This document shows, in pieces, positions 1 through 15,225 of a stretch of DNA of 32,270 nucleotides. The position numbers and the translations under genes are program-made. How positions within the stretch are numbered: the stretch's first letter is position 1; each line of letters opens with the position of its first letter. The notes beneath the pieces are model-generated. The model saw only the letters and a list, made by a program, of their open reading frames with translations, had not been told where the DNA came from and ran no database searches. This DNA comes from a virus. The DNA is taken from positions 1 to 32,270 of IMG/VR virus record IMGVR_UViG_3300021579_000026; one strand, written 5' to 3'.

Positions 1-3000
1 CGCAGCCTTGATGGCTCGGGCATAGCCGGATGCGTCCAGCACCTGCTTGCTCATGGGCCCGGGCTTGGCTGGTGATGTCGGCATCTTCGGCTTTTCGCCG
101 CGCTCCATCTCCAGCATGGCGCTCCATGCGTCCAGCGCCTTGCCGGCATCTTCCTTCTTCTCCAGGTACTTGGCGTATTCCTCGGTGTACTTGGCGTCGG
201 CTGCAGCCATGGCGGCCTTGAAGTCTTGGGCGGTGCCCGACTCTTTGCCCACCGTCACGCTGTCGGCGTTGGCATCCTTGGCAAACTTGATCAGAGATTC
301 AGCGGCCGCCATGTCGCGGGCGTAGTTCTCCATGAAGTTCTTGGCCTGACTCTTGGCCAGCACCACGCCACGGGTTTCGGCGTCCAGCAGGTCAACCTCG
401 CGCTCGGCCTCCAGCTTCAGCTTGAAAACCGGGTTGCCGGTGGATTGGGCCATGAACTCGGCGTACTGGTTGGCGTCTCCCTCGTTTTCGTCGGTGGAAT
501 CCATGTCCGTCTTGCGGAATTCCTCGATGGCCTTGGATTTGCGCTCCAGCACCTGCCACATCACGGCGTCGGATGTTCCGTTGGTCGAGTAGGCGGTGAT
601 GCTCACCGTGAATCCATCGGGGTCACGCTGGTACAGCATGTTGCCCTGCCGGATGATCCGGCCCTCGCGCTGCTCCACGTCAGAAGGCCTCCATGGCGCG
701 TCCATGTGGTGCAGGCCGACAAGGCGCTTCTGGGCGTTGGTGCCCGCGCCCATCTTGGCCGATGATCCCAGCAACACCCGGATCTCGCCATCGTTCACGG
801 CTTGGAACAGTTTCGCCTTCTGCTCTGGCGTGTTGTAGTCGTGAATGAATGCGATCTCGCGCTCGGGGATGCCCTTTTCTGTCAGCAACTGGCGCAGGTC
901 GTCATAGACTGAAAAGCCCACGTCGGCTGTGGTCATGGTCGCTTCCACGTCCTCCAGCCCGCCCAGGTAGGCTGCGATCTTGTCCGCCACCTCTGGATTG
1001 GTTTGCGGGTTCTCCATAATGTCTTCTGCAAGCGACTCGATGTAGCGCCATTGCTGCACGAATGTGCCTTGAGCCTCTACGCGGGCCCTGATGCGCTTCG
1101 CCTCAGTGGGGCCGACAATCTTGTCCAGGCTGTTGCGGACAAAAGCCTTGGCATTCTTCAGCGCAGTCTTGGCTGGGGTGGACAGGTCGCAGAAAACCAT
1201 CTGCGCGCCCTTGTCGGCATCCCACTTGTCGTAGATCGTCTTGATGCGCTCGGCTGCGCGCGCCACCTTGCCGTTTTCGTCGCGCGGCGCGGTGGGGTCC
1301 ACAATGCGGATGTCCAGCGACATCTTGCGGGCGTCGGTCAGCACGTGCAGCGGGTTATCGATCTTGGCGTATTCCTTGTTGCTCTTGTTCTGCTCGATGG
1401 CGTTCATTCGAGCGACAAGGTAGTCCATGTACTGGCTCTGGGCGGAGGTAATGGGTCCAGCGTCCAGTTGGCGCTTCCCGCCTTCGACCTTGGGCACCGG
1501 GAATTCTGTCCGCTCGTTGGTGCCAAGCATCTTGTTCTTGGCCTTCACGTCGTCGGAGTACATGCGCTTGAGGTCATCCATGCTGATGACATCCGCGAAT
1601 GACTCGTAAATCTGCTTCAGGGCGCTCAAGTTGTTCAGGCCGGCCAGCACGCGGCGGGGCTTGAGTTTCTGGGTCGCCGTGTATTCCAGCTTGTTCTCGG
1701 TGCGGGCATAGGCACCGGACCACGCATCAAAGTTGGCCTGGTTGCGCTCGGTCAGGTCTTTGAATGCCAGGTACTTCATCATCGTGTAAAGCTCCACAAG
1801 GGAGTTTGACACTGGCGTACCCGTCGCGCCGGCCACGGCACCACCTCGGGACTGAATGCCCCGGATCTTGATATACAGGTCGAATGCCTTTTTGCTGCCG
1901 TTGGGGTCATTCATGCCGACGACATGCTCGCCGGCAGAGGAATACTCCAGGTTCTTGAATTCGTGCATCTCGTCCACGGCCAGATAGTCGATGCCCATGG
2001 ATTCCAGGTCGATGCCGATCTCGTCCTTCTTGGCGTCCATCAACTCTTTCAGCTTGAACTGGTACTTCTGCAGTTTTTCCTGAATCTGCGTGACAGTGCG
2101 GCCGCTTTCCTTTTTGGCCTTCATCTCGTTGAGCACATCCTGCAGTTCGGTGATGTTCTCATTGACGATGCGTTGCTGGTCTTCCATCGGTGCCGGGATG
2201 AAGCCCAGCGAGCTATGGCCGATGATCACAGCGTCATAGTCGCCCGTCGCAATGCGGGAAAACATGCGGCGGCGGTTCTTCAGCGAAAAGTCATCCGGGG
2301 TGGCTGCAAGGATCTTGGCACCCGGGTACATCACGTAGAACTCTTTCGCCCACTGCGTCACCAAATGGTTGGGGACTACGATCATGGGCTTGCGGGACAG
2401 GCCCAGGCGCTTGCGCTCCTTCACTGCCGTCACGATGGTGAACGTCTTGCCCGCCCCAACAACGTGGTCCAGCAACACGCCGTCATCCTGAATCATGCGC
2501 CAAGCGGCATTCTTTTGGGTGGTGCGCAGCACGATTGACGGGCTGGCCCCCACGGTCTTCAGGTACTTGTTGCCGTCGTACTTGCGCGGGATGTGGGTGT
2601 TCATCTTCTCGTTGAAGGCATCCACAATCGCATTCATGCGGTCATCGTTGGCGTAGGCCCACTCTTCAAACACCTTGGTCATGCGCTCGGCCAGCAGGTT
2701 CACCTCTTTGGTGGCCGCCTCGTTCTTGACTCGTTTCCCATCAGAAGACTCAACCCAGATTGTGATGCTCTTGCCGCTGGCGGCTGAGTTGAAGATGTCG
2801 GTCACAGTCTTGATGCCCGACTTGAACTGTGCGCCGAATTCAGTCTCACGCAATGCGCCACCGTTCGCCAAGATCATGCCCTGCGAGGCGATGATGTTCA
2901 CGCGCGGCTTTTGCACACCGATGTCCGTCAGGAACTGCTCGAACACCGATTCAGGCATCCATGAGCCCCGAATGCTGGGCTTCACGTTGTCGCGGGTCTT

Positions 3001-6000
3001 CGGCTCGGGCTGCACAGCCTCCAGCGCCTTGATGTTTTCCTTCAGGCCATTGGTCCGGGCAATTTCCAGTTTGCGCTTGACGTTGCCAGACAGGTAGTTG
3101 TCCGCGTCCGTGTACTCGTTGGTGTCCGGGTCAAAGAAAATCGAGGGGCTTTCGCCGGAAGACAGTTCATTGATGACTTCGACCTTGCTCTTTTTGGTCA
3201 GCTTGGCGATGTACTCAATGTCCAGTTTCCCGCGCTCGGACATGCTGATTTGCAGGCCGTCATGCGCGTTCTTGGCGCTGGTGATCTCTTTGTAGGGGAA
3301 GTTCACGCGCTGCCTGAAAATGTCCGACTTGCCGGCGCTGGCTTTGGCCTTCCCATTCTTGGGCTTGAATCCGGTTTCCAGACCCGATTCCACACCAACA
3401 TCACCGTCCAGCAGGTTTGCATTTGCCGGATCGCTCACGTACCCGTGCTTGGCCACGTAGGCGTCGTACTCGGCGTTCAATTGCGTGCGCAGGGACTCCA
3501 TGCTGGGTGCGCTCTGCATTTCGGCTGCGATCAGCCTCAAAGCCGTGTTGCGCAGTCCCAGCAAGCCCTTCAGGCTCTGGTATCCATCTTCGCCCAACTT
3601 CTTGCGCTGCAATGATGCGGTGATTTCTTTCAGTTGCTCGTTGTGGGACCACTGGTAAGCGGGCGCGTCCAGGCTATCGCGGATGTCGTAAACAGCCTGC
3701 TCGGCCTTGGTCGGCTTGGGGCGCTTCTCGCCCTTGGCCGTGTAGGCAATGGCTGTCGCTTCCACAAACTCTGTGGCTGCGGCTTTGAAGTCCTTGCCAT
3801 CACGCAGCGCCTTGGCCGCGCGCTCCACGTCCTGCCATTGCTCGGCCCCATCCTTCCAAAGCGTCTCGGGCGTCACTTCCTTGATGACGGCATTGCCCGC
3901 CTCGTCATCCATGTCGCGCTTCAGGATCTTGCCAGCCTCGTCGAGCATCACGCCACCAATGGGCATGTCGCTCTGCTTGATCATCACGGCCGCAACATCC
4001 TGGTCAGCGTTGGTCGGCTTGGCCACGTCCTTCAGGTCGGCCCACTTGTTGGCCACAAGGTCAGATATGGCTTTCGTCAGGTCGCGGCCATCGCCGTGTA
4101 CCGTGTACTCACCTTCGCCTCGGCCGGCGTACATGGTGCCGTCCATCGCAGAGCGGCCCAGAATGTTCTCGGGGTTGGCTTGGTAGTAGCGGTTGACCCG
4201 CATTTCCACGCCGTCCACCGTGATCTTGCCATCGGTGTCCAGCCATGCGGTATCGGTCGCCTTCTCGCCCTCGCGCAGCTTCTGCAGGAAGAGAACGTCG
4301 GTCACCACATCGGTGCCGGCATTGGCCTTGAATGCGTCGTTCGGCAGGCGGAATGCGCCCAAGAACTTGAAGCTCTTCGCCAGGTGGTCGCGCGCCTCGG
4401 GGTTGGCGGTGTCCAGAAAGCGGTGCGTCACCACCATGGCCATCACACCACCGGGGCGCAGGTGCTCTCCGGTCTTGGCAATGATGTAGTTGTGGATCTT
4501 CATCTGCGGGATATGCGCATAGGCGGGCACATCGCTCTTGATGGTCAGGCTTCCAAATGGCGGGTTGCCAATGGCAAGGTCAAATGCACCTTTGGCAAAC
4601 GGTACGGACTCAAACCCGGTCCCGGCATGGATTGCCGCCTCGGGGTAGATCAGCTTCGCCAATTGCCCGGTGATGGTGTCCAGTTCAGCGCCATGCCACT
4701 CGGTAGACGCGGCCAGGTTCGGCGGCTGCAGGCCGATGAAGTTGCCGATGCCCGATGTCGGCTCCAGCGCGCGGCCACCGGTAAATCCAAAATGGGAGAC
4801 TGCTCCCCACATGGCTTTCACGATCTCGGGCGCGGTGTAGTGGGCGGCCGTCGTGGATCGCTGCAGGGCAATCCAGTCTTCGCCCTTGTCGCCGTTCACC
4901 AGAAGTGGGGCCTTGCCGTTGGTGCCCAGCAATTCAGCCCGGGCTTCAATCCACTGCTTGCCGGTGGTGTTGGGGTCGATCAGTTCGCGCAGCCCGCCCC
5001 ATCCAACAAACTTGGCCATGGTCGCTTGCTCGGCTGGTGTCGCGGCGCGGTCCTCTTTCTGGATCTGGCGCAGCGTCCGGATGGCCGCCATGTTGTTGCG
5101 CAGCTTCTCGCCCTTGGTGCCTTCGCCGATCTTGTCTTCATCGGTGATCTGGAAGTTGCCGATGCCACCCAGGGGCAACTGGTTGGGAGAATCGTCCTTG
5201 CGGTTCAGCGGTCCGTTGTCGAGCGGTCGTACTTCGGCGGTGGGGCCATGCAAAACAGGCTTTTCGCCTCGTCCCACGCCTGTTCTTCGCTTACTCCCAC
5301 TGCGATTTGCGCGTCCATCTCCATTCGTGTCAGGGTCGCGCACGCTCTCGCCTGCCTCAGAAGCCACGTCCTGGGCAAGCTCTGGATTTCCTTTCGGTAG
5401 TTCGTTGTCCAGTGGTTCAACGTAATCTGCGTCATTTCCTGTGGTGTCATTAGCTTTCTCCTGAGCCTTTGGCTCTTCTGACTGGTCGTTGCTGGCCTGA
5501 AGCTCTTCCATCGTTTCAAAGCCTGCAACCTCTTTCTTTGGGGTCACGGGCTTGTCCTTGTGGCGGCCGGCAGTGGCAATGTACGCGCCCTGAAGCGTGT
5601 CAAACGGGATCGAATCCGCCGTTTCCCGGTCGATGTTCTGGCCGATGAAGTCGCGCACGTAGTTGACGGCCTGCTTGAACTTGACCTGTCCAAGCTCCAT
5701 CGCGCCATCAAACAGTTCAATCATGATGGGAAGTAGCTGCTGCTCTTCCTCGGGCGTCCAGTTGGCGCGGGTGTTCTTGGATGCTAGCGCGGCCAGCTTG
5801 CCCACTGCGGCCAGCATCTTGGCTTTGGCTGCTCGCTCTTTGTCGGTCAGGGCGTCTTTTTGCTCCGGGCTTGCTGTTGGCGCTACTTCTTCTTTGCCTG
5901 CATCGGGTTGAACAGTGGCGGCCTGCTCGGGCTGGGCATCGGCTTTTTGGACCACTTCTTCTGCGCTTGCGGGCTTCCCGCTGGTATCGTTGTTGTTGCC

Positions 6001-9000
6001 ATTGATAATCTCCGTATCGGTGAATCTCTTGATTACCTGCTCGTCAGTCACAACACCCTCGGCACCGAATGATGCAGGTAATTTTTCTCCATCCGTATGG
6101 ATGCTCACTGCCACAACCTTTGCAGGATCAGACTTGTTGCGGATAATTTTTAGTGTTGCTGGCTTGCCGTCAGCATCTATAACGCGATGTTTAGTCACGA
6201 TTTCCTGAGATTCTGGCTTTGCCACGATGTCCCATCGCCCACCATTGCCCTGTACAGCTCGGTGCGTGTCCTTCAATCCGTTCTTGGTAATGAAGTCCTT
6301 AGCTTTCACGCCATCGTTGAACCAGGCTTTGCCGGCTGCGATGCGCTCTATGGCCTTTGCGCGCTTGGTGTCCACGCCAAACAGGTGATCGAGGTCGGCC
6401 TTGGCGCTTCCAAGGCTGGCGGGGCCTACTTTTTTTCCTGTCTTTGAAGGCTTGGCATTCAGTCCAGATTCATCGGCTGCAATCTTGGCTCGAATAGCAT
6501 CATCACCCTTGAGAATGCGGACCTGCGAATTCTTGACTCCATTGCCGATGTCTTCGGCATCACTCTCGGCTGCGATCCCGCCTTCAACTCCTTGGGTTAC
6601 TGTGTGAGGCTTGCCATCAATCAGTACCTTGTCGCCCATCTTGATGTCGGTGGGCGGCAGTGGCTTGTCGGCTGCATCGCTTCCCGTTGGCGCTGGCGTT
6701 TGATCTGGCGCGGCTTTGGCTGAATGCTGGGCTTCCAGCAAGTCATTGATGCGGGACATGGCGGCGTTGCCAATTCCACCCTTTGTCAAACCCTCGATCC
6801 GGGCGACGATCTGCTCGCGAGATTTTCCTGCGGACACGCCATCTTTAATGGCTTTGACCACCATCTTCTTCAAAAGTTTTTGGTCGTCTATGCTGATTTC
6901 ATCGTTAGGACCGTCGGCGCGTGCTGGCCCTTCAACTGCACCGATTAAGACAGCCCATTCGTCGTCTGTGAGCTGATTAACCGGCTTTGCTGTCACCTTG
7001 GCCACCGGCTCTGCGACATCCTGCGCGGACTTTACTGCTGGGGCTTGCGCTTCTGGCTGTTTCGCTTCTGCTTGCTGGGCTTGATCGGCTTGAGTGCCAT
7101 TGATTTCTCCGGTTGGTTGAGTGGGTAACTCTGGTTGCGCGGCAGTGGCTGGCTGCGATGCACTTCCTTTTACTGCATCTGCAATCTTTGCATCAATCGC
7201 CTTACGCTCGGCTGATCCGATTTTCGTCTTGGCACGTTGCTCAAGCATGGCGCGCACGGTATCGGCAACAGTTTTGTTCGGCGGTACCCATGCCGTGCCA
7301 TTGGACTGGTTGTTGATCAGAACAGAGGACGCAGGCACCAGCTTGCCATCTTTTGTGACAACCATAGTCAGCGGGTTTGTATCGTCCGAGCCTTTTCTGA
7401 CCTCATACGTGAAAGCGCCGATGTCTGCAGTCGGGTCGAGTAGGTTGGACCCTTTCTTGTGCTGATCCACGCGGATGCGGTAGCCGTCTTGGCCATCAAT
7501 GAAGCCGGAATTCTGGTTGGCCTCTGGTGTCGCAGCAACTTCCGCACTCTTCACCCGGGCATTGATCTCGCGCTCTACCTTGCGGCGCTCCTTGACCAAC
7601 ATCTGGCTCCATCCGCCATTGCTCTTCGCCTGGTCAGCTATGTACTTCAGGCGCTCGCGCAGGGCGGGCTCGTCCATTTCCTTCAGGTTTGGCGGCTTTG
7701 GCGCTTCGGCGGCTGGTGCTGCTACCGGTGCTTGCTCCGGGGTAGCGGGCTGCTCCGGGGTTGCGATTGGGTTGTCGGCATGCTTGTCGGCTGCGCTGGC
7801 TAGTGCATTGGTCAGGGGTGTGCCCGGGTCTTTCTGCTCCACCGGGGTGATGCTGATGCTGCCATCGGGACCGGTCACCGCGTTGTACGTGACGCCATCG
7901 TCGCCAACGATCTGCACGGGCATGGCCTGGGTGACGCCTGCCGCCGTCGCGGTGGCGCGCTCCAGTGGGCCAGAAGCTGGAGCGGGGGCTGCGGGCGCTG
8001 CTTGCTGCTCTGGTGCCGCCTGAATGTTGGGCACAGGTGCGGGCGCTGGCTGGCCGGTTGCCAATGCGTTGGCGCGGCGCTGGTCCAGCACTTCCTTGCC
8101 GCCAGATACGATTGCTCCCGGGCCAGATCCGATGCCCGTCTCAACAATGGTCTGTCCGACATCTTTCAGTGCCGGCCGGTTGTCATATTTCCCGGCCTGC
8201 AGGTTGGTTGCGATCTTGGGGGCAACCTCTTCGCCTTGTTCTCCAGCGGCCTCGATGCCAAATGCCTTGAGCCCGGCCACGGCGGCATTGCGAGGCGCTG
8301 CTTTGGTCGCACCCTGCACCAATACCTTTTCAATGCCGGTTTTGCCGCTCACAGCGCCAGCCACACCGCCCACGGCGGCCACCACGCGCGAGTCTGCCAG
8401 TGCCATCGCCTCGGCTTCAGGTTCAGACTTACCCTGAGCCATCAGGGTGCGCTTGATGTCTTGGAAGGCTTCGCCACGCGCGCCGCCAGCGTTCATCACG
8501 GCATTGACACCTGCTGCCGCCGTCGTTGCGGTGCCTGCTGCCTTGGCCACTGTCGCACCACGGGCCAGTGCTGCAGCCTGGGCTACTTTGGCTGCGCCAA
8601 TGCCCGGGATCATGCTGGGCAGGTTCGTCGTGACAAACCGAGCGGCCAGTCCGGGGTCGCTGAAATACTGCTTTGACGCCTCTACGATCTGGGCGACAAC
8701 TCCGTCATTGCCAGCCACATCAATTGCCTTGTTGGCGGTATCCATGCGCTGCTGCAGGGATGCAGACTGCTTTTCACGCCACGCCTTGGCATTGTCATCA
8801 AAGAACCCCGCCACCGATCCCTCGGGGGCAATCAGGCTTGGTATCGCGCCAAGCATTGTGTTCACGCCTTCGGCAAGCTGAACTCCCGTGTCGCCGGCTA
8901 CCTCGCCCCACGTTCTGGTGGCTGGCTTCTCGGGCGGCGTGTCGGTGAAGTCATCCGGCGTAAGCGCCATCGCTCCGGGTTTGGCGGTCGGCGGTGCGTC

Positions 9001-9519
9001 TGCAAAGTCATCAGCCGTCAGCCCCTGGGGCTTGCCCGCGCGCCCGGCCACGCTGCGCGCGTAGGCTGCAGTCGTGATACTGCCATCGTTCGTGCTCGGG
9101 ATGCGCCCAGCCTTCAGGTCGGGGTGCCCATACCCAGCATGGTAGCCGGCCGCCAACAGTTCGGGGTCTTTGGTGCCCAACGTGGTCTGGCCGTGCTTCA
9201 GGTAGCGCAGGCCGGCTTCCATGTTGTTGAACTGGTCGTCTTGCCCGTCTTCCGAGCCCATCATCTGCCGGTAGGTGCCCGGCATCACCTGAAAGCCGCC
9301 TCGCGCGCCCTTGGTGCTGGTGGACGGATTGCGTCCGCTACTCGATTCTTGTGACCAAATGGACAATGCAAGGTCAGGATCTACGCCAAGCTCAGTAGCC
9401 CGGCGCACCACGTCATTGGCGGTCGGGGTTCTGAGTGGGGCCCTTACTGTGGGCCTGACCGATGTGAAGTCATCGGCGGTTGCTTGGGGAGGGGAACCGA
9501 AAAGGGGATTTTGAGCCAC
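1..9519 (-). CDS. Giant virion-type polyvalent protein: lytic transglycosylase + N6 methyltransferase + SNF2 helicase (3' end beyond window)
   Basis: The frame is open for 3,173 codons and leaves the left edge, so the C-terminus is missing. Residues 35-135 look like a lytic transglycosylase (SLT) domain, with candidate catalytic Glu58 in WSQESSSG and a GGFQVMPGTY motif at 74-83; this would open peptidoglycan during DNA entry. Residues 200-470 are Ala/Gly-rich and helical, followed by long low-complexity linkers. A methyltransferase core has EPTSGIGN at 1586-1593 and NPPF at 1652-1655, the N6-adenine type. An SNF2-type helicase follows, with VGAGKT at 2354-2359, DEMH at 2516-2519, ATGTPVSN near 2560 and an arginine-rich motif VI (EGRIIRQGN) near 2955. 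This order matches DarB-like polyvalent proteins, which are carried in virions and protect or help deliver entering DNA. The GTG start is fixed by an in-frame TGA 12 bases upstream and a GAGG ribosome site at 9527-9530. It is the last visible gene after two other ejection-type genes. Confidence 0.9.
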   Translation of the reverse strand, partial: MAQNPLFGSPPQATADDFTSVRPTVRAPLRTPTANDVVRRATELGVDPDLALSIWSQESSSGRNPSTSTKGARGGFQVMPGTYRQMMGSEDGQDDQFNNMEAGLRYLKHGQTTLGTKDPELLAAGYHAGYGHPDLKAGRIPSTNDGSITTAAYARSVAGRAGKPQGLTADDFADAPPTAKPGAMALTPDDFTDTPPEKPATRTWGEVAGDTGVQLAEGVNTMLGAIPSLIAPEGSVAGFFDDNAKAWREKQSASLQQRMDTANKAIDVAGNDGVVAQIVEASKQYFSDPGLAARFVTTNLPSMIPGIGAAKVAQAAALARGATVAKAAGTATTAAAGVNAVMNAGGARGEAFQDIKRTLMAQGKSEPEAEAMALADSRVVAAVGGVAGAVSGKTGIEKVLVQGATKAAPRNAAVAGLKAFGIEAAGEQGEEVAPKIATNLQAGKYDNRPALKDVGQTIVETGIGSGPGAIVSGGKEVLDQRRANALATGQPAPAPVPNIQAAPEQQAAPAAPAPASGPLERATATAAGVTQAMPVQIVGDDGVTYNAVTGPDGSISITPVEQKDPGTPLTNALASAADKHADNPIATPEQPATPEQAPVAAPAAEAPKPPNLKEMDEPALRERLKYIADQAKSNGGWSQMLVKERRKVEREINARVKSAEVAATPEANQNSGFIDGQDGYRIRVDQHKKGSNLLDPTADIGAFTYEVRKGSDDTNPLTMVVTKDGKLVPASSVLINNQSNGTAWVPPNKTVADTVRAMLEQRAKTKIGSAERKAIDAKIADAVKGSASQPATAAQPELPTQPTGEINGTQADQAQQAEAKQPEAQAPAVKSAQDVAEPVAKVTAKPVNQLTDDEWAVLIGAVEGPARADGPNDEISIDDQKLLKKMVVKAIKDGVSAGKSREQIVARIEGLTKGGIGNAAMSRINDLLEAQHSAKAAPDQTPAPTGSDAADKPLPPTDIKMGDKVLIDGKPHTVTQGVEGGIAAESDAEDIGNGVKNSQVRILKGDDAIRAKIAADESGLNAKPSKTGKKVGPASLGSAKADLDHLFGVDTKRAKAIERIAAGKAWFNDGVKAKDFITKNGLKDTHRAVQGNGGRWDIVAKPESQEIVTKHRVIDADGKPATLKIIRNKSDPAKVVAVSIHTDGEKLPASFGAEGVVTDEQVIKRFTDTEIINGNNNDTSGKPASAEEVVQKADAQPEQAATVQPDAGKEEVAPTASPEQKDALTDKERAAKAKMLAAVGKLAALASKNTRANWTPEEEQQLLPIMIELFDGAMELGQVKFKQAVNYVRDFIGQNIDRETADSIPFDTLQGAYIATAGRHKDKPVTPKKEVAGFETMEELQASNDQSEEPKAQEKANDTTGNDADYVEPLDNELPKGNPELAQDVASEAGESVRDPDTNGDGRANRSGSKRRTGVGRGEKPVLHGPTAEVRPLDNGPLNRKDDSPNQLPLGGIGNFQITDEDKIGEGTKGEKLRNNMAAIRTLRQIQKEDRAATPAEQATMAKFVGWGGLRELIDPNTTGKQWIEARAELLGTNGKAPLLVNGDKGEDWIALQRSTTAAHYTAPEIVKAMWGAVSHFGFTGGRALEPTSGIGNFIGLQPPNLAASTEWHGAELDTITGQLAKLIYPEAAIHAGTGFESVPFAKGAFDLAIGNPPFGSLTIKSDVPAYAHIPQMKIHNYIIAKTGEHLRPGGVMAMVVTHRFLDTANPEARDHLAKSFKFLGAFRLPNDAFKANAGTDVVTDVLFLQKLREGEKATDTAWLDTDGKITVDGVEMRVNRYYQANPENILGRSAMDGTMYAGRGEGEYTVHGDGRDLTKAISDLVANKWADLKDVAKPTNADQDVAAVMIKQSDMPIGGVMLDEAGKILKRDMDDEAGNAVIKEVTPETLWKDGAEQWQDVERAAKALRDGKDFKAAATEFVEATAIAYTAKGEKRPKPTKAEQAVYDIRDSLDAPAYQWSHNEQLKEITASLQRKKLGEDGYQSLKGLLGLRNTALRLIAAEMQSAPSMESLRTQLNAEYDAYVAKHGYVSDPANANLLDGDVGVESGLETGFKPKNGKAKASAGKSDIFRQRVNFPYKEITSAKNAHDGLQISMSERGKLDIEYIAKLTKKSKVEVINELSSGESPSIFFDPDTNEYTDADNYLSGNVKRKLEIARTNGLKENIKALEAVQPEPKTRDNVKPSIRGSWMPESVFEQFLTDIGVQKPRVNIIASQGMILANGGALRETEFGAQFKSGIKTVTDIFNSAASGKSITIWVESSDGKRVKNEAATKEVNLLAERMTKVFEEWAYANDDRMNAIVDAFNEKMNTHIPRKYDGNKYLKTVGASPSIVLRTTQKNAAWRMIQDDGVLLDHVVGAGKTFTIVTAVKERKRLGLSRKPMIVVPNHLVTQWAKEFYVMYPGAKILAATPDDFSLKNRRRMFSRIATGDYDAVIIGHSSLGFIPAPMEDQQRIVNENITELQDVLNEMKAKKESGRTVTQIQEKLQKYQFKLKELMDAKKDEIGIDLESMGIDYLAVDEMHEFKNLEYSSAGEHVVGMNDPNGSKKAFDLYIKIRGIQSRGGAVAGATGTPVSNSLVELYTMMKYLAFKDLTERNQANFDAWSGAYARTENKLEYTATQKLKPRRVLAGLNNLSALKQIYESFADVISMDDLKRMYSDDVKAKNKMLGTNERTEFPVPKVEGGKRQLDAGPITSAQSQYMDYLVARMNAIEQNKSNKEYAKIDNPLHVLTDARKMSLDIRIVDPTAPRDENGKVARAAERIKTIYDKWDADKGAQMVFCDLSTPAKTALKNAKAFVRNSLDKIVGPTEAKRIRARVEAQGTFVQQWRYIESLAEDIMENPQTNPEVADKIAAYLGGLEDVEATMTTADVGFSVYDDLRQLLTEKGIPEREIAFIHDYNTPEQKAKLFQAVNDGEIRVLLGSSAKMGAGTNAQKRLVGLHHMDAPWRPSDVEQREGRIIRQGNMLYQRDPDGFTVSITAYSTNGTSDAVMWQVLERKSKAIEEFRKTDMDSTDENEGDANQYAEFMAQSTGNPVFKLKLEAEREVDLLDAETRGVVLAKSQAKNFMENYARDMAAAESLIKFAKDANADSVTVGKESGTAQDFKAAMAAADAKYTEEYAKYLEKKEDAGKALDAWSAMLEMERGEKPKMPTSPAKPGPMSKQVLDASGYARAIKAA
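5205..5450 (-). CDS. Nested out-of-frame small gene inside the giant gene (81 aa, unknown function)
   Basis: This 81-residue frame lies wholly inside the giant gene, shifted +1 relative to it. Its ATG at 5450 is preceded by AGGAG at 5458-5462 with a 7-base spacer, as good as any ribosome site in the window. The product looks like a real protein rather than a shadow: it starts MTPQEMTQITLNHW and has an amphipathic helix ending in EEQAWDEAKSLFC, and it lacks the Arg/Pro/Ser excess of the other out-of-frame readings. The ending resembles a type of small phage protein I recall (helix, then 'E-x-AW-x-E-x-x-x-LFC', then a proline-rich tail), but I cannot name the family. In the giant frame the same DNA encodes a charged linker just before the methyltransferase region (giant residues about 1357-1439), where two frames can be tolerated. 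The frame extends upstream to an ATG at 5528, but that start lacks a comparable ribosome site. Function is unknown. Confidence 0.65.
   Translation of the reverse strand: MTPQEMTQITLNHWTTNYRKEIQSLPRTWLLRQARACATLTRMEMDAQIAVGVSEEQAWDEAKSLFCMAPPPKYDRSTTDR
5458..5462 (-). promoter_or_regulatory. Ribosome binding site of the nested gene
   Basis: The minus strand reads AGGAG, then 7 bases, then ATG at 5450. It sits inside the giant reading frame, where no ribosome site is needed, and so is the main support for the nested gene. Confidence 0.6.
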
Positions 9520-13489: not shown

Positions 13490-15225
13490 CACTGCACCTC
13501 GTTCAGTTCACGGGCCGATGTCGCCAGCACCACGCGCTCAATCTCCGCCGTTCCGTTCACTTGGACCTCCCACGCCCGGGCCAACTTTGGCTGCAGGCGC
13601 TTCACTTCCCCGATCTGGTTGACAGTTCGCAGCAACTGGTCGTCAGCGTACACCCGCACCGATGCATACTTGGCTTCCGGTAGGGCCTGCATGCCGTCAC
13701 CGTTCAGCGAAAACTCGTTGAACTCCATGCCGTCGATCTCTGCGTTGAAGCCTGCGGTGAACAAGGCCGCGTTGGATGCCACAATCGCCGCGGTCGCTGC
13801 GTCGCTGGCCGCCTGCTCTTCCGCTGTCATGGACTTGCTGCCCTCCACCAGCACGGCACCGAACGAAACCGGATCAGGGAAAACCACCCGCTTGGATGTC
13901 CACGTCATGACCTCATTTGTCTGGCCCAGGGCGTCCCACTCGTACACAGTGTCGCCCACAAGGTAGAACAGGGAACCGGTGGGCAGGTCGTAGTAGAAGG
14001 CGTCGGGGGCCACGGTCGCGCGCAGCACAAACGGCTGCTGGCCGGTCAGGTCAATGATGCGAGTGCCCTTGGTGATCGATCCGTCCGCTTCAACATGGCT
14101 GAAGCTGGCAAAGTACCGCCCCGCGAATTGCCCGCCGATCAGCGTTGCCGGCGACAACTGTTGCCACTTCGGGCGGGTGTAGAGCGTATCAGTCACCACT
14201 GTGGCATTGCCGCCAGACACGACGACAAGCCCGTCATTGCTGGGATATGCCACGGAATACCCGAGATCCACCAGCCCGCGGCCATTGATGCACGGCAGGT
14301 TGACCTCGATCTTTTCCTCGATCATGTTCTCCGGCGCGCTGCCGGTCACCACGTAGGGGTAGCCACTGGTCCCGGCCACTATGGTGTTGCCGTAGCCGCC
14401 CAGCCCGACAATGGTGAATGGCGAAGTCAGGCGGTACTTCTGCGGCCAGGCGTGCGGCCTGTAGGGCTCGCTGAAGCATAGTTGCTTGCCGCTGAATCCG
14501 GCCATCATGCCGTTGGGCAATGAGATCAACCCTGCAAGGTCGGCAGGTGGTGTGTCGTAGTCTTTCGACGGGATCACATCTTGGAAGTCGGTCGGCGTGT
14601 GCGTGTCCACGTAGTTTGATGTCGAAGCCGTGCGCTCTTCGATCAGGAACAGGTCGGTCCCGTTCTGGCTGCTGCTCTGTGAGCGGTAGATGCGCTGCTT
14701 GGTGATCCCGCGCCCGGTCGGCACAGCCGGGAAGCCGGTCAGCGTGACAGTGATGCCCGATTGCCAAGCCACCTCTGCCGTCAGTGGCGATGGCTGGCTC
14801 TCTTCGCCAAACGATGTCACGTAGGTGAAGGCATACAGCCTGGTCGTCACGTCGCCTGAGCCCACGCCCGCCGTTGATACCGATAATGCCGCTGTTGGCC
14901 CGGCCAGCGCCAAGCCGTAGACCGTCGAGCCCACCAACATCTTGGGGGCCCCGTCACCGGTGTAGTACAGCCGGTCAGTGGCCACGGGCCCAGGCACCGC
15001 ATTGACCACCGATGTCCAGGAGAGCCATGTGCTGCCGAATTTGTAGATTGTCTGGATTCCAGTCAATCCGGTGAAGACGTGCTCAACCCGGGCTTTCCTG
15101 ATGGGCGTCAGCCCGCCGTCGTCCAGCCGCACATTCTCGGAATGCTGCGATCCGGTGTCGGGCAACAGGCGAGAAAGCAGGCGCGGGATTTCGCCAGAGA
15201 ATTGAGCAAGTCGGAGTTTTGCCAC
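13489..15225 (-). CDS. Probable tail hub / nozzle protein, 578 aa
   Basis: The protein starts VAKLRLAQFSGEIPRLLSRL and continues with repeated beta-rich blocks, for example GTDLFLIEERT, NGMMAGFSGKQLCFSEPYRP and GNTIVAGTSGYPYVV. This N-terminus and the beta-propeller-like body are typical of podophage proteins placed between the adaptors and the tail tip (T7 gp12 or P22 gp10-type role). That functional assignment is inference. A longer reading from 15300 exists, but GTG at 15225 is preferred: it has AAGG 6 bases upstream, directly follows the TGA of the previous gene, and removes a Ser/Arg/Pro-rich leader that looks non-coding. A short Ala-rich helical insert near residues 470-490 interrupts the beta-rich region. 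Confidence 0.78.
   Translation of the reverse strand: MAKLRLAQFSGEIPRLLSRLLPDTGSQHSENVRLDDGGLTPIRKARVEHVFTGLTGIQTIYKFGSTWLSWTSVVNAVPGPVATDRLYYTGDGAPKMLVGSTVYGLALAGPTAALSVSTAGVGSGDVTTRLYAFTYVTSFGEESQPSPLTAEVAWQSGITVTLTGFPAVPTGRGITKQRIYRSQSSSQNGTDLFLIEERTASTSNYVDTHTPTDFQDVIPSKDYDTPPADLAGLISLPNGMMAGFSGKQLCFSEPYRPHAWPQKYRLTSPFTIVGLGGYGNTIVAGTSGYPYVVTGSAPENMIEEKIEVNLPCINGRGLVDLGYSVAYPSNDGLVVVSGGNATVVTDTLYTRPKWQQLSPATLIGGQFAGRYFASFSHVEADGSITKGTRIIDLTGQQPFVLRATVAPDAFYYDLPTGSLFYLVGDTVYEWDALGQTNEVMTWTSKRVVFPDPVSFGAVLVEGSKSMTAEEQAASDAATAAIVASNAALFTAGFNAEIDGMEFNEFSLNGDGMQALPEAKYASVRVYADDQLLRTVNQIGEVKRLQPKLARAWEVQVNGTAEIERVVLATSARELNEVQ

Follow-up and report, generated by a model that had tools for sequence, protein, structure and literature searches.

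Comparative evidence for a gene family nested in the +1 frame of giant DarB-like genes of phages, plasmids and Bacillota elements

A family of small open reading frames (ORFs), each embedded in the +1 frame of a giant DarB-like polyvalent gene, very likely represents a genuine overlapping gene, a conclusion reached by comparison and without expression data. Homology and a fixed start site are shown by comparison, as is the same +1 arrangement in phages, plasmids and Bacillota elements. The earlier note, which considered a single viral sequence, had proposed that one such ORF is a real nested gene; this interpretation is supported through the relatives, the original copy being divergent. The finding exceeds that proposal, as the nested gene very likely is conserved across a whole class of giant genes, although its function and expression are inferred only.

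The nested frame and its host gene in the window

The window, i.e., the whole stretch of DNA analyzed, is a virus record of 32,270 bases, which carries a podovirus-like structural module with matches to terminase, portal, major head and internal virion proteins. The host of the nested ORF is a giant gene composed of lytic transglycosylase, N6-adenine methylase and SNF2 helicase parts (Table 1). Its product matches phrog_10089 ("DarB-like antirestriction") in PHROGs with E=0. In Pfam, SLT, SNF2-rel_dom and Helicase_C all exceed their cut-offs, and Eco57I, at 25.0 bits, falls just under its cut-off of 25.3. The gene meets the criteria for a DarB-like antirestriction gene, namely an N6-adenine methylase joined to an SNF2/SF2 helicase together with a match to the DarB profile, and in this family membership (phrog_10089) resembles P1 DarB. 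P1 DarB is reported to be present in virions and to protect injected DNA (PMC5512222); gp69 of JC1 has likewise been detected in virions (PMC9144972). By analogy with these two proteins, the giant protein of the window may be packaged and may protect DNA, an inference for which there are no data here.

The earlier note had described, without assigning a strand, an 81-codon frame that is shifted +1 relative to the giant frame, begins with an ATG preceded at 7 bases by AGGAG, encodes the motif E-x-AW-x-E-x-x-x-LFC, and lies over a charged linker of the host protein. All of these observations were confirmed. The ORF, which the minus strand encodes, covers host codons 1357–1439, where the host frame indeed encodes a low-complexity charged linker. 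The corresponding stretch of the host protein is also low-complexity and poorly conserved in relatives.

Table 1 Coordinates of the nested genes, their host genes and associated features
Feature	Sequence and positions	Strand	Remarks
Giant DarB-like polyvalent gene	window, 1..9519	minus	GTG start at 9519; 3173 codons; open at the window edge
Methylase-side part of the giant gene	window, 4020..5202	minus	directly after the nested gene; query for finding relatives
Host linker across the nested gene	window, 5202..5451	minus	NDTTGNDADYVEPLDNELPKG...GPLN; low complexity, charged
Nested small gene	window, complement(5205..5450)	minus	ATG at 5450, TGA end at 5205; 81 codons + TGA; product of 81 aa, MTPQEMTQITLNHWTTNYRKEIQSLPRTWLLRQARACATLTRMEMDAQIAVGVSEEQAWDEAKSLFCMAPPPKYDRSTTDR
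Shine-Dalgarno-like AGGAG	window, 5462..5458	minus	7 bases 5' of the nested ATG
PBC5 orf33/methylase overlap	L027, ~6697-7273 (L009/L027)		natural indel and sequencing error both possible
Second nested +1 ORF	L031, ~13553-13720	+	DPPATFDTLQKWKDWHASVSQWPARDPDRQGYLKQARQIIREKS
Second nested +1 ORF	L039, 13478-13681	+	
PBC5 counterpart of the second nested ORF	AF448724, 19744-19872	minus	51% identity over 43 residues

It should be noted that synonymous recoding of the host leaves the +1 frame open for 80 codons in 55% of cases, and that the window lists 188 ORFs of at least 60 aa. The length of the ORF alone is therefore no evidence, and conservation must decide. Taken alone, the nested protein of the window has no match in Pfam, PHROGs, phages (tblastn) or viral contigs. 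Nevertheless, a profile of the relatives from which the window had been excluded places this ORF first among the 585 ORFs of the window, with E 1.4e-5 compared with 1.7 for the next. The same profile assigns it 19.3 bits, above the 17.3 bits of the best control among 20,000 shuffles and 20,000 host recodings. The window copy is only 15–26% identical to its relatives and has no near relative in the data at hand, so that selection on it cannot be measured. It keeps the start, the Shine-Dalgarno sequence, the frame and the position, as well as the HW, L, A, G, EAW, L and P residues that characterize the family.

Structure predictions were limited to window and IMG/VR sequences. An AF2 model of the window protein, built with 27 relatives, has a mean pLDDT of 91 and predicted helices at residues 3–17, 19–22, 27–50 and 55–65. 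Its top fold match in BFVD is Q8W6J4_2, which we take, from its length, to be the second half of orf33 of Sinorhizobium phage PBC5. Among solved structures, a sequence search returned a single match, to a designed helical protein (E 0.085), Foldseek found nothing at E ≤0.001, and the best VIA-align match (2apl, Z 7.4) is within the range reached by unrelated helical models. The window copy is, in our opinion, likely to be a real nested gene, a judgment that rests on the relatives and not on expression data.

Relatives in phages, plasmids and Bacillota elements

Relatives of the giant gene were collected with its methylase part, and their six frames were then scanned with the nested protein of the window. 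The best match (E 3e-5) was found in locus L002, alongside many chance matches; those in L002, L008, L007 and L003 all fall at the equivalent site, just 5' of the methylase. A second, sharper query, the nested protein of Pseudomonas phage Itty13, matched 21 phage records and 12 IMG/VR loci, and an alignment search matched 58 IMG/VR loci. Nine loci, obtained by searching genome contigs with a narrower alignment, are outside the analyzed set. The phage records span eight host genera (Pseudomonas, Erwinia, Klebsiella, Sinorhizobium, Agrobacterium, Ochrobactrum, Vibrio and Microcystis). A separate annotation of the nested gene is absent from all 21. In Itty13 itself (L008/L036) the giant DarB-like gene is unannotated on its own strand, and three large ORFs are annotated on the opposite strand.

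Apart from PBC5, every phage match that was fetched is offset +1 from the giant frame. Of 59 distinct loci, 57 have the nested gene enclosed, at the +1 offset, by a host frame of no fewer than 700 codons; PBC5 enters this count through its methylase frame, and the two exceptions are L068, where the host frame is broken, and L080, which lies at a contig end. All 53 distinct nested starts examined are ATG or GTG, and 46 of them are located exactly 12 codons 5' of the HW pair. Moreover, 98% of nested starts, vs 20% of control ATGs, are preceded by a Shine-Dalgarno match of at least 4 bases. The proteins, predicted to be all-helical and 80–110 residues long, share the motif MNLQNWI.QAR.HWKEH.P.RY.EL...G.L..AL..AAE.T..E...LE..G....EAW...RE.YL..P. 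The nested gene was not seen in the DarB-like genes of L108 and L121. In P1, no candidate was found upstream, and the stretch that was scanned holds no nested gene of this family. The partners of P1 DarB are Ulx, DarA and Hdf. Ulx was considered as a homologue of the nested protein and was dropped: unlike the nested gene, ulx is an ordinary gene downstream of darB.

The arrangement in PBC5 differs. Its upstream protein, orf33, continues in frame into the nested domain, and the methylase frame overlaps that domain. The C-terminus of orf33 (phrog_938, ~2084–2173) is the same domain as the nested protein, read here in frame with the upstream protein, whereas elsewhere the domain is a separate +1 ORF. 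Because orf33 runs on into the nested frame, phrog_938 ends with the nested domain; this family is matched by 20 of 21 members, and those examined align to its C-terminal end.

In plasmids of Pseudomonas, Xanthomonas, Paraburkholderia and Acidovorax, RefSeq annotates a "hypothetical protein" of ~100 residues just 5' of the methylase. In L106, L109, L014, L012 and L013 the methylase frame has starts upstream and continues without a stop across this small gene, which is therefore nested +1 in these plasmids too. For the same five loci, a stand-alone plasmid ancestor located 5' of the methylase was considered and dropped. The annotated methylase/helicase starts lie at or inside the conserved part of the protein (6079, TTG, in L106; 6079 in L109; 8142 in L012; 6091 in L105), and upstream in-frame ATGs are available in L106, L109 and L012. 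These late starts likely result from the nested gene being called first. Near the end of the nested gene of L105 (Pseudomonas putida plasmid pPp1290, 5440–6200) the host frame changes or is broken; an indel, an error and a frameshift site are all possible. The small gene also begins 28 bases into the SNF2 gene of a Citrobacter plasmid, and in BcepIL02 an AAGGAGG precedes the ATG of a nested +1 ORF. Among plasmids, related genes in the nested +1 position are seen in those of Pseudomonas, Xanthomonas, Burkholderia and Citrobacter. It should be noted that plasmid and phage nested proteins have weak sequence similarity, and thus the case for their common origin leans partly on position and frame.

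A third set of loci connects the family with TnpV (PF14198), which is the only Pfam family to match most of the members (15 of 21, best E 5.9e-6). TnpV-like ORFs are nested +1 in methylase-SNF2 frames homologous to the giant in a Subdoligranulum plasmid (L120), in L118 and in L006 (IMG/VR), and likewise in a Monoglobus plasmid (L123) and a Cohnella plasmid (L124); RefSeq labels the nested ORFs of the last two as TnpV, and the Bacillota ORF of L006 (13938–14315) scores 152.9 bits against PF14198. In L124 (Cohnella herbarum plasmid, 1158–7253), TnpV is annotated and the surrounding methylase-SNF2 frame of 2086 codons has no gene call.

The order of helices agrees between AF2 models of TnpV and of the nested protein, and Q8W6J4_2 ranks third among the BFVD matches of the TnpV model (E 1.4, prob 0.89). 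Profile comparison of the two families with hhalign is weak, giving P values of 0.005–0.013 at low probability. Two differences should be mentioned. TnpV has an N-terminal extension, which the phage-type nested protein does not. In addition, TnpV occurs also as a free-standing gene in Bacillota, and all phage-type members examined fall below the curated cut-off, the best relative (L026) reaching 26.7 of the 27 bits of the gathering score and the window copy giving no hit. Since the curated score is not met, the window protein is not assigned to TnpV. Nevertheless, the Pfam match, the helix order, the suggestive profile comparison and the shared nested position make a common origin of the two families likely. 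The literature searched treats TnpV as a transposase-type gene; to our knowledge, no function has been established for it.

Selection on the two frames

Comparison of related loci shows purifying selection on the nested frame and suppression of synonymous change in the host frame. This result applies to the family and not to the window copy. The pairs compared are not independent, and effect sizes are given without p-values; the effects are very large and consistent across groups.

Seven groups of related loci were compared. In the nested core, 2.0% of comparisons at host fourfold-degenerate sites show a difference, vs 39.9%, 40.7% and 40.9% in three flanks, and the core is below the downstream flank in 7 of the 7 groups. 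Host third positions, ordinarily those that vary most, vary least within the core, where the most variable sites are the host first positions, which are the third positions of the nested codons. The transition is abrupt: host synonymous differences of 0.23–0.5 upstream drop to 0.000 at the block that starts with the nested start codon. The pN/pS ratio of the nested frame is 0.12, 0.23 and 0.39 across bins of rising divergence, compared with 2.0, 1.6 and 1.5 for the host frame in the same DNA. Until DNA divergence reaches 40–50%, the nested frame has the highest amino-acid identity of the three frames. Plasmid pairs (L106, L109 and L014) have a selection pattern that matches that of the phage loci.

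The earlier note had named stand-alone homologues or lowered synonymous variation as support for a nested gene, and a lack of homologues, frequent stops in close relatives and unconstrained synonymous sites as evidence against it. The outcome of these checks favors the gene: homologues are present in the phage records and IMG/VR loci enumerated above, the nested frame is open at the equivalent site, and host synonymous variation is about twentyfold lower, the drop being sharply bounded at the nested start.

A second trough in host synonymous variation was observed in the giant genes of Agrobacterium/Rhizobium phages, ~2170–2260 host codons after the first nested gene. It corresponds to a second nested +1 ORF, which has a counterpart in PBC5 (Table 1). 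The equivalent of this ORF in the window would fall past the window edge.

Expression, possible function and significance

We infer that ribosomes would initiate at the internal Shine-Dalgarno sequence and ATG on the message of the giant gene, and that the product would be an all-helical protein distantly related to TnpV. The linker that joins the N-terminal part of the giant to its methylase-helicase part would then have been written over an older nested frame. The nested frame is conserved and has free-standing relatives, and the host frame there is variable filler; for this reason, the linker of the giant is likely the younger of the two readings, although this is not proven. The suggestion of the earlier note that an ancestral stand-alone gene was overrun by the giant is thus favored and remains unproven; in its favor are the conserved, folded nested protein, the filler character of the host frame and the stand-alone TnpV genes of Bacillota.

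With regard to function, the nested protein may assist the DarB-like methylase-SNF2 protein as an accessory subunit, as a chaperone or in packaging, and a single message for both would supply the giant and the nested protein together. A partnership in assembly, packaging or activity is inferred because the nested gene travels with one host family across phyla; we regard it as a tentative proposal, with the balance of evidence slightly short of favoring it. A bolder reading is that an ancient nested gene, always in the +1 frame, is common to DarB-like polyvalent genes in phages, plasmids and Bacillota elements, and that its TnpV-like product has been retained as an obligate partner of the methylase-SNF2 machine; this is equally no more than a hypothesis that we hold with some doubt.

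The main alternative concerns only this inferred function. The nested gene may encode a real protein that is an independent anti-defense or host-takeover effector without a physical tie to DarB, which remains possible. Small helical proteins of mobile elements often act alone, and TnpV is also found as a free-standing gene; against this reading, phages, plasmids and Bacillota elements all retain the nested gene within one and the same family of host genes. The earlier idea of a separate effector is accordingly undecided, a DarB-like partner being at least as likely.

Other alternatives question the nested gene as such. Ribosomal frameshifting from the giant frame would make the nested domain the C-terminus of the N-terminal part of the giant, with no internal initiation. 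The entry of the upstream frame into the domain in PBC5 is consistent with this possibility, and a programmed shift would be compatible with the invariant +1 offset. However, nearly all loci have a fixed start codon and a Shine-Dalgarno-like site, the nested frame of Erwinia and Klebsiella phages contains stops just two codons before the ATG, and constraint on host synonymous sites starts at the nested start codon. The edge of constraint at this codon, together with the Shine-Dalgarno sequence, favors internal initiation, and frameshifting is very unlikely. A chance-open frame, i.e., a stop-free GC-rich linker in which the start, the ribosome-binding site and the helix are coincidental, is also very unlikely and is refuted for the family. 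The frequency of open frames in recodings and the absence of any family or relative match for the window protein alone speak for it; the conservation of protein, start, Shine-Dalgarno sequence and synonymous constraint in relatives, and the first rank of the window ORF with the window-free profile, speak against it. Finally, RNA structures and regulatory signals also reduce synonymous change, but such a signal without a protein is all but excluded by the codon pattern, i.e., change concentrated at nested third positions with a low nested pN/pS, and by the superior amino-acid identity of the nested frame.

An overlapping gene thus remains the preferred explanation. Embedded o-spanins (Rz1 in Rz) are fully nested overlapping phage genes, and the likeness is clear: a complete small gene with its own start is read in a different frame within a larger phage gene. 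The difference is that the proteins are unrelated, and that the host described here encodes a giant injected protein, the pair spanning phages, plasmids and two phyla. Conservation of a fully nested same-strand gene over such a range is rare; in this case, phages of many hosts, plasmids and elements of a second phylum have all retained the same protein within a giant injected gene. Neither a nested gene in DarB-like genes nor a nested TnpV was reported in the literature searched, which mostly did not include subscription journals.

Current annotation breaks the pair: where several plasmids have the small gene annotated, the host is either shortened to a false internal start or omitted. A search for synonymous constraint in the stop-free linkers of polyvalent genes is worthwhile; the second nested gene came from such a scan. 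The nested gene offers a handle on TnpV, a common family, and on the assembly and packaging of DarB-like proteins. If the bolder reading is true, TnpV, which is often labeled transposase-related, would act as an accessory factor in antirestriction, and further nested genes would be present in giant polyvalent genes.
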